This document shows positions 12,788-20,480 of a stretch of DNA of 64,000 bases, piece after piece (position 1 is the stretch's first letter; the number at the start of each line of letters is the position of its first letter). Origin of the DNA: Victivallis lenta (GTDB lineage: Bacteria > Verrucomicrobiota > Lentisphaeria > Victivallales > Victivallaceae). The stretch is taken from NCBI RefSeq assembly GCF_009695545.1, contig NZ_VUNS01000002.1, positions 310,001 through 374,000 of the forward strand. Direction: 5' to 3'. Both the position numbers and the translations under genes were made by a program. The notes under the pieces are model-generated. The model was given only the letters and a program-made list of their open reading frames with translations. It made no database searches and was not told the origin of the DNA.

Positions 12788-13237
12788 TCAGCGGGTCACG
12801 TCGAACCGGTAGCGGACCGTCTGTTCCGGCTGCGGATTCTTCTCCCACTCCCGGATGCAGTTGCCGACCACGTAGATCGACCCCGGACGCGCCGCTTTGA
12901 CCATGACCTCGCGCACACCCGGCGCTCCGGCCAGCCGGGTATTCGACGCGAGATAACGCTCTCCGACCAGCTCGACCGCCTGCCCGCTCTTCGGCTGCGG
13001 GCCGCGCTTGCCGTTGTCGAGCTTGAAGTACCAGCTGTAACCGGTAGTCGGATTCTCCTTCAGCGTGATCTTCGCATACTGGCCGACCCGGAGCGGAACT
13101 GCGTCGCCGGATTCCTGAATCGTCAGCGTAACCGACGGCGCCGGGAAATCAAGCGCCTTCTCTTCGGACGGCTGCGAAGCGCAGCCCGCGAACAAAGCGG
13201 CGCAGACGGCAGCGGCCGGAATCAGAAAATATTTCAT
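12788..13237 (-). CDS. Chagasin/I42-type protease inhibitor lipoprotein
   Basis: A 149-residue protein with a lipoprotein signal ending in LFAGC (lipobox cysteine at residue 19). The mature part contains ENPTTGYSWYF, the NPTTG loop of inhibitor family I42, a GVRE-containing second loop near GAPGVREVMVKA, and a final beta-rich segment. I42 proteins inhibit papain-like cysteine peptidases; here the inhibitor would be anchored on the periplasmic side. ATG 13237 follows AGGAAGGAGG at 9 bp. It has its own promoter (13275-13303) lying over the end of the upstream gene. Confidence 0.82.
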   Translation of the reverse strand: MKYFLIPAAAVCAALFAGCASQPSEEKALDFPAPSVTLTIQESGDAVPLRVGQYAKITLKENPTTGYSWYFKLDNGKRGPQPKSGQAVELVGERYLASNTRLAGAPGVREVMVKAARPGSIYVVGNCIREWEKNPQPEQTVRYRFDVTR

Positions 13238-13274: not shown

Positions 13275-13303
13275 ACAATAGCACGGCTCAGCTGTTTCCG
13301 CAA
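13275..13303 (-). promoter_or_regulatory. Promoter of the I42 inhibitor gene
   Basis: Minus-strand TTGCGG, 17 bp, TATTGT. The -35 lies inside the last codons of the upstream HPr-kinase-like gene. Confidence 0.5.
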
Positions 13304-14148
13304 TCGAAACAGTTCCAGAATGCTCCGTCCAGCGTCGCTTCGAGCCGCCGCACCGGCAGTTCGCGGCAGAGGCGGCGGCCGAATTCAAAGCCCCGCAGCT
13401 TGAGCGCCCGGGCCTCTTCGGCCGGGACTCCCTGTTCCAGGATGTAATGCAGAAACACAAAGCTCTGCGAGATGCCGAGCACCTGCTGAACCGGCGACAG
13501 TGCGGCGACCGCGTCGCGCTGCGACTGCGCCAGCAGGAAAACCCGGTCCACCGGCACCGCCCGGCCGCCTTCGCAGCAAATCTCCGGCAACCGGCGGAAC
13601 CAGCGCGACCAGGTCGGCAGAGGATGGGCGAAATAACCGGAACCGTGCCGGATCAGCAGCAGCGCGTCGTCGCAATGTTTCTCCCACTCCGCATCGGGCA
13701 GCCGCCGGATGCTCGTGCTCTTTCCGGCTCCGCTCGCGCCGCAGATCAGGATGCCGCGATTGCCTTTCGAGGCGACGGCGCCGTGCACCAGCGCCGCATC
13801 GTCCCCCGCCAGCAGCCACGCCAGCGGCAGGAACGAGATGCTGCGCCGGAAAAACAGAAGCTCGCGCGGCGTCTCCGGGTCGCGTTCGAGGTAAAAATGC
13901 AGTTCGGCATTCCCCGGCCGGACCACCCGGAAAAGACCGTGGAAGAGCTGCGGCCACAGCGCCGGCGACGGCACATCGCCGGGCGGCGCGCCGTCATGCA
14001 GAAACGCGCCCGCCTCCGCCGGAACCCCGCCCGCGAAGCTTTCCCAGCCGCAACACGCCGCGATCTTCGCCAGCAGCCGCGCGCTTCGCGCTCCGCAGGA
14101 GCTCCAGCCGATGGAGCGGCCGTTGCAAAAGGACAAACGGTAATCCAA
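13288..14148 (-). CDS. HPr-kinase-like P-loop protein (ScmC-like)
   Basis: A 286-residue protein with a Walker A motif GASGAGKST at residues 137-145, preceded by the VHGAVASK strand typical of HPr kinase/phosphorylase C-terminal-like proteins, and a following CDDALLL motif in the place of the HPrK metal-binding aspartates. No N-terminal HPrK domain and no HPr-binding signature are seen. Its length and C-terminus (RELPVRRLEATLDGAFW) are reminiscent of ScmC from the SynChlorMet peptide-maturation cassette, but no radical SAM or PqqD-like partner is in the window. It lies 22 bp after the MFS gene in the same orientation. Substrate unknown. Confidence 0.65.
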   Translation of the reverse strand: MDYRLSFCNGRSIGWSSCGARSARLLAKIAACCGWESFAGGVPAEAGAFLHDGAPPGDVPSPALWPQLFHGLFRVVRPGNAELHFYLERDPETPRELLFFRRSISFLPLAWLLAGDDAALVHGAVASKGNRGILICGASGAGKSTSIRRLPDAEWEKHCDDALLLIRHGSGYFAHPLPTWSRWFRRLPEICCEGGRAVPVDRVFLLAQSQRDAVAALSPVQQVLGISQSFVFLHYILEQGVPAEEARALKLRGFEFGRRLCRELPVRRLEATLDGAFWNCFDCGNS

Positions 14149-14170: not shown

Positions 14171-15394
14171 TCAAACCCGCTTCTTCCGCGCGATTTTCGG
14201 CGGGACGATCCGCGCCGTCGCGACGATCAGCGGAACCAGGAGCAGAAACAGCAGTCCCGACCCGAAAAATACGTAACGGACGGTGCCGAACCATCCGGCG
14301 ACGATGCCGCCGAGGTAGGCGCCCGATATCCAGCCGACCGCCTTCGCGCAGGCCGCCCAGCCGAAGTAGCTGCCGTGCTCGCGCTCCGGCGTCGCGCCGG
14401 CCAGCCACGCCTGAAAGAGCGGTTCAACGCCGCCGATCGCCAGAATCATCAGCGAACGCTCGACGAGCAGCCCGGCGACATGGTGGCTCATGCTCTGCAC
14501 GATCCGCAGAACTGCCGCGATCACGATCGCCGCGACCAGCACCCGGATGAACGGCAGCCTTCCGGCCAGAAAACCGAGCAGCAGCCCCGAAACAATACCG
14601 GCCAGAGAACAGAATCCGCTGATCCAGCCGCTCCACGAAAGCGCGTCGGGGCTGTGGTCCATGATCTCCATCACGAGCTGCGGCAGAAACGGATTGTCGA
14701 ACTCCCGCGCCAGCCCGAGGCAGATGAAGAGCACCATCAGATACCAGATCACGCCGAAGCGCGGAATCCGCCAGCGGATGCTGCGGACACGTTCCCGAAG
14801 CGTCTCGGTCCGCGTGAAATTCTCGCGCCCCCAGATCAGTACGAGCATGCCGGAGACGAAAAGCAGCACGCCGCTGCCAGCAAAGGTCCAGTTGAACCCG
14901 AAACGCTGCACCAGGCCGCCGCCGAGAAACTGCCCGGCCATCATTCCGCCGAACAACGCCGAAGCAATCGCGCCGAGAGCGAAGGAGCGGTGCTCCTTCG
15001 GCGTCGTGCTGATGATCAGCGTCTGAGCGGCGGAAACCGTACCGGTCAGCGCGCCGAGGAAGAGCCGGTGCACGATGATCAGGTCCGGAGATGTGATGAC
15101 CGCCAGCAGCGGCATCAGGAGCGCGCCGCCGAAGTTCGCGCGGATCAGCATCATGCGTCTCCCGTAGACGTCGGCGACCATTCCCCAGATCGGGGCGAAA
15201 ATGCAGAAAGTCAGATTGCCGGCCACGCTGAAGAGCGCGACATAATGGCTGAGCTCCTCGTCTCCGGTAACCCCGAGCTGGCGGAAAAAAAACGGCATGA
15301 ACGTATAAGCCGAACTGAACGACGCCATCGAAATGAACTGCGAAAGCCACACCACCGCGAGGTTGCGCTGCCAGCTGCCGGAAATCTGATTCAT
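14171..15394 (-). CDS. Major facilitator superfamily transporter
   Basis: A 407-residue polytopic membrane protein with about 12 helices. The loop GMVADVYGRRMML between helices 2 and 3 matches the MFS motif G-x-x-x-D-x-x-G-R-R. A central cytosolic loop (GRENFTRTETLRERVRS) divides the two halves. It resembles drug/sugar efflux-type members; the substrate cannot be told. The ATG lies 1 bp after the upstream stop, so it belongs to the minus-strand run with the kinase genes. Confidence 0.85.
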   Translation of the reverse strand: MNQISGSWQRNLAVVWLSQFISMASFSSAYTFMPFFFRQLGVTGDEELSHYVALFSVAGNLTFCIFAPIWGMVADVYGRRMMLIRANFGGALLMPLLAVITSPDLIIVHRLFLGALTGTVSAAQTLIISTTPKEHRSFALGAIASALFGGMMAGQFLGGGLVQRFGFNWTFAGSGVLLFVSGMLVLIWGRENFTRTETLRERVRSIRWRIPRFGVIWYLMVLFICLGLAREFDNPFLPQLVMEIMDHSPDALSWSGWISGFCSLAGIVSGLLLGFLAGRLPFIRVLVAAIVIAAVLRIVQSMSHHVAGLLVERSLMILAIGGVEPLFQAWLAGATPEREHGSYFGWAACAKAVGWISGAYLGGIVAGWFGTVRYVFFGSGLLFLLLVPLIVATARIVPPKIARKKRV

Positions 15395-15395
15395 C

Positions 15396-17033
15396 TCAGG
15401 ATGCCTGCGTCCTCTTTCCGGCTCCGGCCGATTCGCGCAGAATCCGGCTGAGCAGAGCGAAATTCACCGGAACATTCAGCAGGAAAACCCGGTCGAGCAT
15501 CTGAAGTTCATTGCGCAATTCGTCGGGGAAACTGCTGCTGATGACCACGGCGGCCAAATCGCGCCGCCCCGAAACCCGGCGCAGCTCCCCGATGAGCTCG
15601 GACAGCTCGCAGTTCTTCAGCGTCGGCGACAGGATCAAACCGTCGAAACTCTCCTGCCCGGCCTGTTCGACCAGCTCCTCCGCCGTGCTGAAACTGCAGA
15701 CCTCGATGTTTCCGGCGCCCAGCAGCCGCCGCAGCAGAAGCGGCGCATCGGCGACTTCGGTGCCGTGCAGCACACGCAGCACTCTCCCCTGCCCGGGCTC
15801 CTCCGGCTCCTCCTTTGCGTGCGCGCCTCTCTTGACCGGAGCACGGCCGCTGCTGTGCACGCGGCGACTCTCGCCGCCGGTCGCCGCGCAGCTGTCGGAG
15901 AGCTCGAAGCGGAGCACGGCGCCGGCCTGCGCCGAGGATGAAACCCGCAGCACGCCGCCGAGCTTGGCGGCGAGATCCCGTGCGAACACCAGCCCGAGGA
16001 TCGGCACCGAAAGGGCATCGGCCGCGACGCCGTCCGCCCCGTCGCTCTCCTCGAAACGGCGGTACTGCTCCGCCAGCGGCTCCCGCAGCGGCGCATGCTT
16101 CGAATCGCGCACTTCGAAAATGATCTTGTTCTCTTCGTGCAGGCAGGAGACCACAAGCGTCTCTCCGGCGGCAGCGGCCCGGCCGACTGCCAGAATCATG
16201 ATGATCAGCAGCTGGTGCAGCAGCTCGCGGTCGAGCACGAGCCGCTCCGGCGCGCTCGCCGAAAAATGGTTGACCAGCATGACCTCGCGCTCCTGCAGCG
16301 AAATCTGGTTGAAGGCGACCAGTTCGCGCATGAATTCAGCCGTGTCGAATTCGACGACCTCGGCGCGTTCCCAGCGGTCGCGGTCCAGCTCCGCGATGTC
16401 GACCAGGCGGTCGATCTGGCGCGAGAGAGCGCCGACGCGGTGGCCGGTCTCTTCGAGCAGCCGGCCGATTTCGGCGCGATCCGGCTTCCCGCTTTCGAGT
16501 TCGAGCATCAGAATCCGGCTGAATCCCTTGATGGAGCCGAGCGGGATGCGCATTTCAGGCAGCATGCGCGCAATGATCTTGAGCTGGAGCAGACTGTACG
16601 ATTCGGCGCCCCGGCGCATGTCCGCTTCGCGCGACAGACTCAGCTTGAGCTTGCTGTTCAGATTCTGCTGCCGGTCGCGGAGCAGGTTCAAAGCCGTGTA
16701 CAGCGTCTGGATTTCGTCGTTCGCCTTGCGCTCCTCCGAAAGCCGGTCGGGGAACTCGCCGTTGGCCAGCTTGTCCGCAAATTCCGCCGCGATGCGCACC
16801 GGCAGCACGACCTGCCGGATCACCCGGATCAGGATCAGGACCGTGATGAAAAAGCCGAGCAGCACACCGCCCAGGCCGAGAATCGCCACCCAGTCGCCGA
16901 GATTCGTATCGACCCGGGAGCGGTAGATATTGGTCAGCTCCGGCAATCCGAGAATCACGATCGGAATCGCGCAGACTCCGCACAGAAAGCCGAGCAGAAA
17001 AATACACGTCGAAATTTTTCGGACTATCTTCAT
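15396..17033 (-). CDS. Degenerate hybrid histidine kinase (no phospho-acceptor His or Asp)
   Basis: A 545-residue membrane protein. Two transmembrane helices (about 10-32 and 48-72) flank a very short periplasmic loop; a HAMP-like segment follows (73-125). The dimerisation helix has ML-PEMRIPLGS at residues 157-167 where active kinases have SHELRTPL, so proline 159 replaces the phosphorylated histidine. The ATPase-like domain (about 250-390) lacks an evident N-box asparagine and has DSKHAP in place of D-x-G-x-G. A receiver-like domain (430-540) has GLILSPTL where the phospho-aspartate is expected. It therefore looks like a pseudokinase scaffold or sensor. It lies 23 bp after a Ser/Thr kinase gene. 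Confidence 0.75.
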   Translation of the reverse strand: MKIVRKISTCIFLLGFLCGVCAIPIVILGLPELTNIYRSRVDTNLGDWVAILGLGGVLLGFFITVLILIRVIRQVVLPVRIAAEFADKLANGEFPDRLSEERKANDEIQTLYTALNLLRDRQQNLNSKLKLSLSREADMRRGAESYSLLQLKIIARMLPEMRIPLGSIKGFSRILMLELESGKPDRAEIGRLLEETGHRVGALSRQIDRLVDIAELDRDRWERAEVVEFDTAEFMRELVAFNQISLQEREVMLVNHFSASAPERLVLDRELLHQLLIIMILAVGRAAAAGETLVVSCLHEENKIIFEVRDSKHAPLREPLAEQYRRFEESDGADGVAADALSVPILGLVFARDLAAKLGGVLRVSSSAQAGAVLRFELSDSCAATGGESRRVHSSGRAPVKRGAHAKEEPEEPGQGRVLRVLHGTEVADAPLLLRRLLGAGNIEVCSFSTAEELVEQAGQESFDGLILSPTLKNCELSELIGELRRVSGRRDLAAVVISSSFPDELRNELQMLDRVFLLNVPVNFALLSRILRESAGAGKRTQAS

Positions 17034-17056: not shown

Positions 17057-18076
17057 TCATGAGTTGCCTTTGCCGAACCGTTTCAGCAGCCGGCTGAAAA
17101 GCGCTCTGGTTTCCGTTCCCTGCTCCGGCTCCGCCGCCTGCGGGTCCGCCTCGCGGCGCAGGACCCGGATGATCTCCGCGTACTCCGGCCGCTCTTCGGG
17201 CGAATAGGAGAGCATGCGGTCAACCAGGTCCGACAGCAGGAAGGAACAGCCGCCCGGCAGATTCGCCAGCGGCGGATAGGCCTTCTTGTGCCGCCGGTCC
17301 AGCAGGTCCTCCGGCTCCCCGACCGTGCCGAACGGCGTATTGCCGGAGAGCAGCTCGTAAATCGTCGCCCCGAGGCTGAAGATATCGCCGCGGTAATCCT
17401 CCGCGCCGAAAAACAGCCGCTCCGGGCTCACATAGGCGGGGCTTGCAAAGCCGCCCCGCACCGCGCTGAACCCTTTTTCTGCCGAAACGTCGGCAAGGTC
17501 GAAATCGCCGAGCTTCGCTTCGCCCTCCTTCGTCAGCAGGATATTGCCGGGCTTCACGTCGTGATGCGCCACGCCGCGGCTCCGGGCGTAGGCCAGTCCC
17601 TCGGCAACCGTGGCCAGCTGCGCCAGAAGCAGCGGCCGTTTCGGCAGTGTGCCGGCCTTCAGATGACGCTCGAGGCTGCCGCCGTCCATATACCGCATGG
17701 CCATGAACGCCTGGTCGTTCCAGACGCCGCAGTTGTAAACCGGGATGATGCCGGGATGGCTCAGCCGCGAAACGACCTTCGCCTCCTCAAGAAAATTGAC
17801 GACCTGCGCCCTGATGTCGTCGTTGGAGGGATTCAGAATCTTCACCGCGACGCGCCTGGCCAGCTGCGGATCGATCGCCCGGTAGACGCACGACATGCCG
17901 CCCTGCCCGCAGAGCGACTCGAGCAGATAACGCTCGAACCGCATCGGCACACGCAGCACCGTCCCGCACTCGGGGCAGGCGACCTTGCTGAACGGCTCAA
18001 GCCCGGTCATATCGAGCTTGGCCTTGCAGCCGCGGCAGAACACCTTGATCGGCTCTTCCCCTTCAGTTTGCGGCAT
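17057..18076 (-). CDS. Ser/Thr protein kinase with N-terminal zinc ribbon
   Basis: A 339-residue Hanks-type kinase without a membrane segment. Cysteines 14, 17, 34 and 37 form a C-x2-C/C-x2-C zinc ribbon. The kinase domain has the Gly-rich loop GQGGMSCV (57-64), the VAIK-type lysine at 79, catalytic loop HHDVKPGN (161-168), DFD (181-183) in place of DFG, and SPE in place of APE. It should be catalytically able; the HRD arginine is replaced by His, so activation-loop control may differ. ATG 18076 follows GGAGGAGT at 6 bp and overlaps the end of the YycJ-like gene by 14 bp. The adjacent pseudokinase is a plausible partner. Confidence 0.88.
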   Translation of the reverse strand: MPQTEGEEPIKVFCRGCKAKLDMTGLEPFSKVACPECGTVLRVPMRFERYLLESLCGQGGMSCVYRAIDPQLARRVAVKILNPSNDDIRAQVVNFLEEAKVVSRLSHPGIIPVYNCGVWNDQAFMAMRYMDGGSLERHLKAGTLPKRPLLLAQLATVAEGLAYARSRGVAHHDVKPGNILLTKEGEAKLGDFDLADVSAEKGFSAVRGGFASPAYVSPERLFFGAEDYRGDIFSLGATIYELLSGNTPFGTVGEPEDLLDRRHKKAYPPLANLPGGCSFLLSDLVDRMLSYSPEERPEYAEIIRVLRREADPQAAEPEQGTETRALFSRLLKRFGKGNS

Positions 18077-18881
18077 ATCCGTACTCCTCCGCCACCATGT
18101 GGTCGAACAGGTCGACCGGACCGACCGGGCGCTCCTGCGAAAGCACCTCGAACCTCAGGTCGGTACGCCCGAGCTCGCGCAGCTTCGTCTCGAACAGATT
18201 CCGGACCAGCTCCGGGCAATTGCATTCGCTCGACAGATGGGCGAGCATCAGCACCGAAGTCCGCGGCGTCAGCAGCTCCTCGAGCGCCTTCAGCGCAACC
18301 ACGTTGTCGAGATGGCCGTGGCGGCCGAGAATGCGGCGTTTCAGGTAGATCTGCCGATCCGAATCGCGCAGCATCTTCGCGTCGTAGTTGCTCTCGAGGA
18401 TCAGCGCGCTGCAGTCGCAGAGCCGCTGCCGGGCCAGCGCGTTGACGTCCCCGAGGTCTGTGGCGATGCCGACCGTGCAGCCGCCGCGCCGGATCACGAA
18501 ACCGACCGGACAGACCGCATCGTGCTGCACCGCGAACGGAGAGATTTCGAAGCCGGCGATATGGAAATCCTGCCCCGGTTCGAACTCAAGCACGCGGTCG
18601 GGAAGCTTGCCCTTCCGTTTCAGGTAGGCCGCAGTCGGCCCCGCCGCGCAGAGCGGAATCGACAACTCGTTGCAGAAGACCCGGCACCCCTTCGAATGAT
18701 CGTCGTGCTCGTGGGTCAGGAGCGCGGCACGGATTCCGGAAGGGTCGATCCCGAGCTTTTCCATGCGGCAGCGGAGTTCCTTCCGCGAAAACCCCATGTC
18801 GACGATAACCGCTCCTTCCTCGCAGGAGAGAACGAGGGCATTGCCCCGGCTCCCGCTGCCGAGCACACTCAACTTGACCAT
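18063..18881 (-). CDS. MBL-fold hydrolase, YycJ/WalJ-like
   Basis: A 272-residue metallo-beta-lactamase-fold protein. The N-terminus LGSGSRGNALV, the metal site THEHDDHSKG and a later LESNYDAKML segment are hallmarks of the YycJ (WalJ) group, linked to DNA exonuclease activity and, in Firmicutes, encoded beside the WalRK two-component genes. Here it heads a minus-strand run with a Ser/Thr kinase and a degenerate histidine kinase. No strong ribosome site precedes ATG 18881. Confidence 0.85.
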   Translation of the reverse strand: MVKLSVLGSGSRGNALVLSCEEGAVIVDMGFSRKELRCRMEKLGIDPSGIRAALLTHEHDDHSKGCRVFCNELSIPLCAAGPTAAYLKRKGKLPDRVLEFEPGQDFHIAGFEISPFAVQHDAVCPVGFVIRRGGCTVGIATDLGDVNALARQRLCDCSALILESNYDAKMLRDSDRQIYLKRRILGRHGHLDNVVALKALEELLTPRTSVLMLAHLSSECNCPELVRNLFETKLRELGRTDLRFEVLSQERPVGPVDLFDHMVAEEYGYAAN

Positions 18882-19067: not shown

Positions 19068-20480
19068 ATGTCCGGAAATCAGCAAACATTAAGTACAACT
19101 TTACGGCAGGAACAGCAGCTCTCGGCGCGTCAGCTCCAGAGCCTCGAACTGTTGAACCTGCCGCTGCTCGAACTCGAAGAACGGCTGATGCAGGCGATGG
19201 CGGCCAATCCGCTGCTGGAGGCGGAAAGCGCCGACGACCTGCCGGAACCCGAGCCCCCCGCCCCGGCCGAAGCCGAGGACGAGGCGAACTTCGATGCAGA
19301 AGCGGCCGAGGCCGACGAATGGCGCGACGACCTGCCGCTGCCCTCCGACAACTGCGCCCGGGACGACGACGCCGAACGCCGCGAATATCTGCTCAACTCG
19401 CTGACCGATGCGCCGACGCTGCAGGAACAACTGCTGCAGGAGCTGGCGCTTTCGGACGCACCCGCGAACCTGCGGCGGGTCGGCGCCGAGATCATCGGCG
19501 GCATCGACGACTCCGGCTATCTGCGCAGCACCGTGCCGGACATCGCAATGTCCACCGGCGAGCCGGTCGAAGTCGTCGAAAAAGCGCTCGAGCTCGTGCA
19601 GGGATTCGATCCGCCCGGCGTCGGCTGCCGTGACCTTCCCGAATGCCTGAAGCTCCAGCTCAGGCGCAAGAACGCGCTGACCCCGGTGCTTGAAGAGATT
19701 CTCGACCACCACCTCGAGGAGATCGCCCGGAATCATCTGCCGCAACTGGCCAGAACGCTCCGGATTTCGCTCGACGAACTTTACGGCTGTCTCGGGGAGC
19801 TGCGCAAACTCTCCCCTTTTCCGGGTTCGGCCCTCGCGCCGGAGCACTCCGAATTCGTGGCGCCCGAAGTCGAAATCGTGAAATCCGGCGACGGCTATGC
19901 GGTACACTCCTGCAAGGGCGCCGCGCCGCGCCTGTTCCTGGCGGAGCGCTATCTTAAAATGCTCGAAACGCCGGATCTCTCCGGCGAGGATCGCGCCTAT
20001 CTGCGCGAAAAGCTCCAGCAGGCCAGGGACCTCATGCGCGCGCTCGAACTGCGCCAGAGCACGATCGTCCGCATCGCGGAGGTCATCGCCCGGACGCAGC
20101 GCGATTTCCTCGCGGAAGGCGTCGAGGCGCTGCATCCGCTGACCATGCGGCAGGTCGGCGAGGAACTCGAACTGCACGAGACCACGATCAGCCGGGCGGT
20201 GGCCAATAAATATGTCCGTACGCCTCAGGGGATTTTCCCGCTGAAATTCTTTTTCAGCGCCGGCTTCACCTCCGAAGACGGCGCCGAGTTGTCGAACCGG
20301 GCGGTCATGGAGAAAATCCGCGAGCTGATCCAGAAGGAGCCCCCGGCCAAACCGCTCTCCGACGAACAGCTCGCGCAAATGCTGAAGGCCGGCGGCATCG
20401 CCGTTGCCCGGCGCACGGTCGCCAAATACCGCGAAGCGCTCGGAATTCCGTCGTCGAACCTGCGCCGGCAGCACATCTGA
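19068..20480 (+). CDS. rpoN: RNA polymerase sigma-54 factor
   Basis: A 470-residue sigma-54. Region I is Gln/Leu-rich (TLRQEQQLSARQLQSLELLNLPL), region II is an acidic Pro/Glu/Asp stretch (about 50-105), followed by the core-binding domain, a helix-turn-helix (MRQVGEELELHETTISRAV) and the RpoN box ARRTVAKYREAL near residue 447, which contacts the -24 element. It would direct transcription needing bEBP activators; none is encoded in this window. The start ATG lies just after a -10-like element. Confidence 0.96.
   Translation: MSGNQQTLSTTLRQEQQLSARQLQSLELLNLPLLELEERLMQAMAANPLLEAESADDLPEPEPPAPAEAEDEANFDAEAAEADEWRDDLPLPSDNCARDDDAERREYLLNSLTDAPTLQEQLLQELALSDAPANLRRVGAEIIGGIDDSGYLRSTVPDIAMSTGEPVEVVEKALELVQGFDPPGVGCRDLPECLKLQLRRKNALTPVLEEILDHHLEEIARNHLPQLARTLRISLDELYGCLGELRKLSPFPGSALAPEHSEFVAPEVEIVKSGDGYAVHSCKGAAPRLFLAERYLKMLETPDLSGEDRAYLREKLQQARDLMRALELRQSTIVRIAEVIARTQRDFLAEGVEALHPLTMRQVGEELELHETTISRAVANKYVRTPQGIFPLKFFFSAGFTSEDGAELSNRAVMEKIRELIQKEPPAKPLSDEQLAQMLKAGGIAVARRTVAKYREALGIPSSNLRRQHI

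Follow-up and report, generated by a model that had tools for sequence, protein, structure and literature searches.

A pseudo hybrid histidine kinase family of the Victivallales, often encoded beside a Ser/Thr kinase

Background

What keeps a membrane histidine kinase in a genome once it can no longer transfer phosphate? The role of pseudo-histidine kinases is understood in only a few cases, and those best known from bacteria feed back into two-component signalling. The question is raised by a minus-strand gene (15396..17033) in a 64,000-nucleotide stretch of Victivallis lenta DNA (the window), which a preliminary description, made from the sequence alone, presented as an intact hybrid histidine kinase lacking every phosphotransfer residue. 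We refer to the gene and its 545 aa product as pHK (pseudo hybrid histidine kinase), and follow here its architecture, its relatives, its neighbours and its possible partners.

Architecture and lost catalytic residues

The frame reads as 545 codons from an ATG start with zero internal stops, in agreement with the full-length frame described earlier. Two predicted N-terminal transmembrane helices (residues ~9-30 and ~47-71; 16821..17009, minus strand as for all parts of pHK) correspond to hydrophobic stretches in the sequence and to helices 2-38 and 45-90 of the structural model. They are followed by a HAMP domain (72-105) and signalling helix (106-147; together 16593..16820; Pfam HAMP at 71-121), a DHp-like two-helix domain (148-222; 16368..16592), a HATPase_c-like domain (226-380; 15894..16358) and a receiver-like domain (416-541; 15411..15788). 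The Pfam matches of the window protein all lie below the gathering cut-offs (HAMP 19.9 bits, HisKA 17.5 bits, HATPase_c 17.4 bits) and include zero receiver matches, while Pfam searches of 33 members of the family described below gave HisKA in 26, Response_reg in 23, HAMP in 22 and HATPase_c in nine. Modelling with AlphaFold2 from the family alignment (mean pLDDT 81.6, pTM 0.54) gave, in order, the N-terminal helices, a long helix, the DHp with its two helices, an ATPase-like alpha/beta domain, a linker of low confidence (about 386-412, also taken as 386-415) and a receiver of alternating alpha/beta topology. The best PDB matches of this model with Foldseek were ShkA (top), HK853 and DivL (4q20), and the family profile matches receiver structures, with DivL and RetS structures also among the matches. 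Model and Foldseek thus place a DHp and a HATPase_c fold after the HAMP domain, as in HisKA-type kinases, although the protein's own Pfam matches are sub-threshold. pHK is therefore predicted to fold like a membrane-bound hybrid histidine kinase, and sequence and predicted model together support the earlier idea of a pseudokinase at the membrane.

Active-site positions were read from an alignment of pHK and seven genuine histidine kinases encoded in the same genome. Pro159 (codon CCT, 16557-16559) stands at the position of the acceptor His of the SHELRTPL box, with the neighbouring Glu160 retained, and the N-box Asn is replaced by Ala282. The G1 box keeps Asp310 and has Lys312 and Ala314 for its glycines, and the G2 glycine positions read Val343, Ile345 and Gly347, so that most glycines of the ATP lid (343-347) are gone. 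In the receiver-like domain, Thr425-Glu426 occupy the place of the acid pair, Ser469 (15627-15629) that of the phospho-Asp, Ser499 that of the Thr and Val521 that of the Lys. The substitution at the H box, the erosion of the N and G boxes and the missing phospho-Asp, all proposed in the preliminary description, were in this way confirmed. A structural substitute for the acceptor was also considered and rejected: helix 1 of the DHp contains zero His (those of the protein are at 198, 256, 273, 299, 313, 393, 405 and 423), and the helix-2 residue His198 is not conserved among the aligned sequences. pHK thus has neither the H-box His nor the N-box Asn and full set of G1/G2 glycines of an active HisKA-type kinase, and with Thr425 in its acid pair and Ser469, Ser499 and Val521 at the other three positions its C-terminal domain is a pseudo-receiver under the published definition, in which any of five conserved residues is missing (PMC12632262). 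As strongly as sequence allows, phosphorelay through pHK is excluded.

Absence of the acceptor His is reported for 0.9% of bacterial HisKA domains (PMC12632262). Genuine HisKA domains number at least 17 in the window genome, and the His was kept in all 15 others inspected. One hybrid kinase of this genome (L111, G000:C9:79500-82500) has kept its His and receiver Asp and has lost N-box/G-box residues.

Conservation of the loss within the Victivallales

The pHK family was collected by a search for relatives and then in 289 genomes of the phylum, many of them fragmented assemblies, and is delimited by a score gap between members (>= 244 bits) and ordinary hybrid kinases (<= 207 bits); one further locus (L064, 119 bits) was included because its gene context matches (MFS, PBP fragment, SEDS). 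It comprises 41 members from 23 genera and six families, all in the order Victivallales. With residue positions in distant members taken from MAFFT alignments at 20-30% identity, the acceptor His is missing in 41/41 (Pro in 24), whereas the adjacent position 160 is Glu in 31 and Asp in eight. The N-box Asn is missing in 40/41, and the whole family has lost most of its ATP-lid glycines. The two next scorers outside the family that were inspected (L101 and L102) keep SHEIRTP. In the phylogenetic tree a single branch (length 1.39, support 100/100) sets the genuine kinases apart, and parsimony on this tree requires one change for the His and three for the receiver Asp. Judged from alignment and tree, the loss of the His is single, ancient and common to the whole family. 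With regard to the receiver, the Asp is missing in 31 of the 40 members that have this domain, and the nine relatives retaining it all fall outside the family of the window, the Victivallaceae, which indicates that it was lost later than the His.

The protein is also under purifying selection. Whole-gene dN/dS was 0.08-0.29, with 0.15-0.21 for the DHp and 0.06-0.18 for the ATPase-like domain, and the comparison between the window and L031 gave 0.21 for the DHp, 0.18 for the ATPase-like and 0.25 for the receiver-like domain against 0.74 for the linker, all of these values being approximate given the high synonymous divergence. The best conserved segments of the family are the HAMP domain and signalling helix (per-domain conservation 0.43 and 0.53). 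The simultaneous absence of several catalytic residues could in itself suggest a pseudogene or recent decay, but with the same loss in members across 23 genera, a single ancient change for the His and low dN/dS, this explanation is scarcely credible and was rejected. The claim that pHK is not a decaying pseudogene therefore stands. The preliminary description had named close homologues keeping His or Asp as the sign of recent decay: none keeps the His, and the receiver Asp is kept only in other families of the order. As a homologue of histidine kinases without the residues for autophosphorylation, kept by selection, pHK is a pseudo-histidine kinase. Such proteins are already known, while this family appears to be undescribed, as we found no description of it in the open-licence literature.

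Some unorthodox catalysis might survive, with pHK binding another nucleotide or phosphorylating Ser, Thr or Tyr. The G1-box Asp is retained in 29/41 members, and Ser/Thr/Tyr phosphorylation has been reported for the plant subfamily II ethylene receptors (PMC3485614), but the family-wide loss of the N-box Asn and of most ATP-lid glycines makes this very improbable.

Gene neighbourhood

Directly upstream of pHK, with its end 23 bp away, lies the gene for a Ser/Thr kinase (17057..18076, minus strand; Pkinase 144.6 bits) with an N-terminal zinc ribbon (C14, C17, C34, C37) and a kinase domain at residues 53-303 carrying HHDVKPGN and DFD motifs. Its four-Cys zinc ribbon is conserved, and DFD stands where DFG is expected. 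The start of the kinase gene is overlapped by 14 bp by a gene for an MBL-fold metallo-hydrolase (18063..18881, minus strand; Lactamase_B_2 61.6 bits), and divergent from this operon is rpoN, encoding sigma-54 (19068..20480, plus strand; Sigma54_DBD 205 bits). By synteny, the divergent rpoN, which forms the border, the MBL-fold protein, the Ser/Thr kinase and pHK make up a block found across the order.

On the other side, an MFS transporter gene (14171..15394, minus strand; MFS_1 155.7 bits) starts 1 bp after pHK. An MFS gene adjoins pHK in only five loci (the window, L034, L041, L044 and L064), and the transporter was rejected as a core partner. The same gene run continues with a P-loop protein resembling SynChlorMet ScmC (13288-14148, minus strand; 102 bits, cut-off 125) and ends with a Chagasin-family (I42) lipoprotein-like gene (12788-13237, minus strand); a Chagasin-family (I42) homologue is found directly 3' of pHK in L031-L033.

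In the gene neighbourhoods of the family, no two-component kinase or regulator was found as a conserved neighbour of pHK. This bears on the possibility that pHK acts as RetS or DivL do, dimerising with an active hybrid kinase or binding its regulator and so tuning it. Such a role would fit the retained DHp and ATPase-like folds, the Glu160 position, the DivL and RetS structures among the matches, the supply of genuine HisKA domains in the genome and the receiver Asp of the nine relatives. Next to the missing neighbour, however, the ATPase-like and receiver-like parts of pHK are far more degenerate than those of DivL (PMC4211667), and we regard this explanation as improbable.

The Ser/Thr kinase as candidate partner

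The kinase gene lies directly upstream of pHK in 21 of the 41 loci, spread over four families (f1, f2, f4 and f7), and probably also in L050, where the contig seems to stop inside it. In eight further genomes the kinase is present but detached from pHK. Taking absence to mean no profile match of orthologue strength, pHK occurs with no orthologous kinase detected in 11 genomes, and the kinase without pHK in three, and an obligate pair was therefore rejected. As the kinase without detected pHK occurs in f3, f6 and a genome from another family of the class (G153), it is more widespread than pHK and probably older. A detached kinase usually remains with the MBL gene, and pHK with the PBP fragment and SEDS genes, at times with the MFS gene as well. 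In other families of the order the kinases reach ~1000 aa and have a hydrophobic segment, whereas most Victivallaceae kinases are ~330 aa without one. The kinase is degenerate, with its HRD/DFG motifs lost, in three loci (L049:7746-9365, L062:7627-8610 and L097:4788-5948), where it adjoins pHK and so forms a pair of pseudokinases.

The suggestion that pHK hands over to this kinase is plausible and in part supported: adjacency across four families speaks for it, while the genomes with only one of the two genes, the separate ways of the two genes where the operon splits, the wider distribution of the kinase, its degeneration in three loci and weak rate covariation speak against it. In a mirror-tree analysis the partial r was 0.31 (p=0.04) for pHK and the kinase and 0.83 for pHK and the MBL-fold protein, and hence this approach does not single out the kinase. 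With the widest adjacency, and a membrane segment lost in much of the Victivallaceae, the kinase is nevertheless the best single candidate for a partner.

SEDS polymerase and PBP-fragment genes near pHK

In part of the Victivallaceae the operon runs on into a SEDS polymerase gene and a gene for a transpeptidase-less protein with the PBP dimerisation domain, both assigned by Pfam for representatives and by BLAST clusters for the rest. In 12 loci pHK is accompanied by one or both of these genes, and ten of these loci have no adjacent kinase. All six genes form one cluster in G005, and in L125 (G006, same genus) the MBL, kinase, PBP fragment and SEDS genes directly follow one another, and both pHK and the MFS gene are absent. 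Of 12 genomes checked, 11 contain a third paralogue of SEDS (FtsW/RodA) type (L034:2196-4048, L064, L096, L041; G042:C198, G053:C2, G017:C1, G026:C2), usually beside a protein of 220-260 aa with only a PBP_dimer domain and no transpeptidase.

The association suggests envelope synthesis as the output in part of the family, and it also allows a different explanation, in which pHK acts mainly on this envelope machinery or on the MBL-fold protein and the kinase is a mere co-regulated neighbour. The ten loci without adjacent kinase point that way, as do four loci (L038, L058, L061 and L100) in which pHK adjoins the MBL gene without a kinase, and the MBL-fold protein shows the strongest rate covariation with pHK. 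Against this, the SEDS pair sits elsewhere in the genome outside part of the Victivallaceae, and the window's own genome (G000) contains no third SEDS/PBP-fragment pair, which cannot therefore be the output of pHK there. The MBL gene is also separated from pHK in many Victivallaceae, and its product may simply be a good species clock. We consider this explanation rather unlikely.

Discussion

The account we favour, tentatively and at somewhat less than an even chance, is that pHK is a retained conformational sensor or scaffold that lost phosphotransfer in the ancestor of the family, with the Ser/Thr kinase as likely partner and envelope synthesis as output. It starts from what can be read in the sequences, namely dead active sites, a shared ancient loss, purifying selection, the predicted fold and the gene neighbourhood. 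A membrane-anchored hybrid histidine kinase would have lost phosphotransfer in this ancestor. A sensor or scaffold role is suggested because selection best keeps the HAMP domain and signalling helix, the path of conformational transmission: a signal at the transmembrane region, which we infer, would pass along this path into the DHp/ATPase-like/receiver-like body and change its binding to a partner. The most likely partner would be the zinc-ribbon kinase of the adjacent upstream gene. In most Victivallaceae this kinase has no membrane segment, and pHK might recruit it to the membrane or regulate it there by direct binding. The most likely output would be cell-envelope synthesis.

The family is of wider interest as it spans an order, is under selection and is often encoded beside a Ser/Thr kinase, although its acceptor site and ATP site are dead, as is the receiver in one family. 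It offers a clean natural system in which to ask if a histidine kinase body can signal purely by shape, and if it can control a Hanks-type kinase.

With regard to known systems, ShkA, the top structural match, and CikA resemble pHK in being hybrid kinases whose receiver fold lacks the phospho-Asp, but both have kept an active kinase core (PMC12632262). The neighbouring kinase has its best NCBIfam match in the PASTA kinase family of PknB/StkP type (169.8 bits), but it scores below the cut-off of 450, carries a zinc ribbon and has no PASTA match. The nearest described bacterial case to pHK is DivL of Caulobacter, which likewise has a histidine kinase fold with a replaced acceptor (Tyr550) kept as a regulatory module. 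In DivL, which acts together with CckA and DivK and carries PAS domains, the N, G1, F and G2 boxes are all retained (PMC4211667), whereas pHK has dead ATPase boxes as well, a dead C-terminal receiver, a TM-HAMP input and a Ser/Thr kinase neighbour; with Pro159 in place of a Tyr and no PAS match, it does not qualify as a DivL orthologue.

The nearest functional analogy is provided by the plant ethylene receptors and the Raf-like Ser/Thr kinase CTR1. According to PMC3485614 and PMC3933193, the histidine kinase/receiver region of these receptors holds and activates CTR1 by contact, and phosphorelay is thought unlikely. Receptors and pHK share a partly degenerate, membrane-bound body resembling a hybrid histidine kinase. 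The likeness is one of analogy only: CTR1 works in plants, pHK is linked to its kinase by gene adjacency, and pHK, with two predicted transmembrane helices, has no Pfam match for the ethylene-binding and GAF input domains. Extending this logic, a fully dead membrane hybrid histidine kinase might gate a zinc-ribbon Ser/Thr kinase by contact and, in part of the family, be coupled to the third SEDS polymerase with its partner PBP lacking a transpeptidase, a scheme that we offer as a doubtful bacterial counterpart of the ethylene receptor-CTR1 pair.
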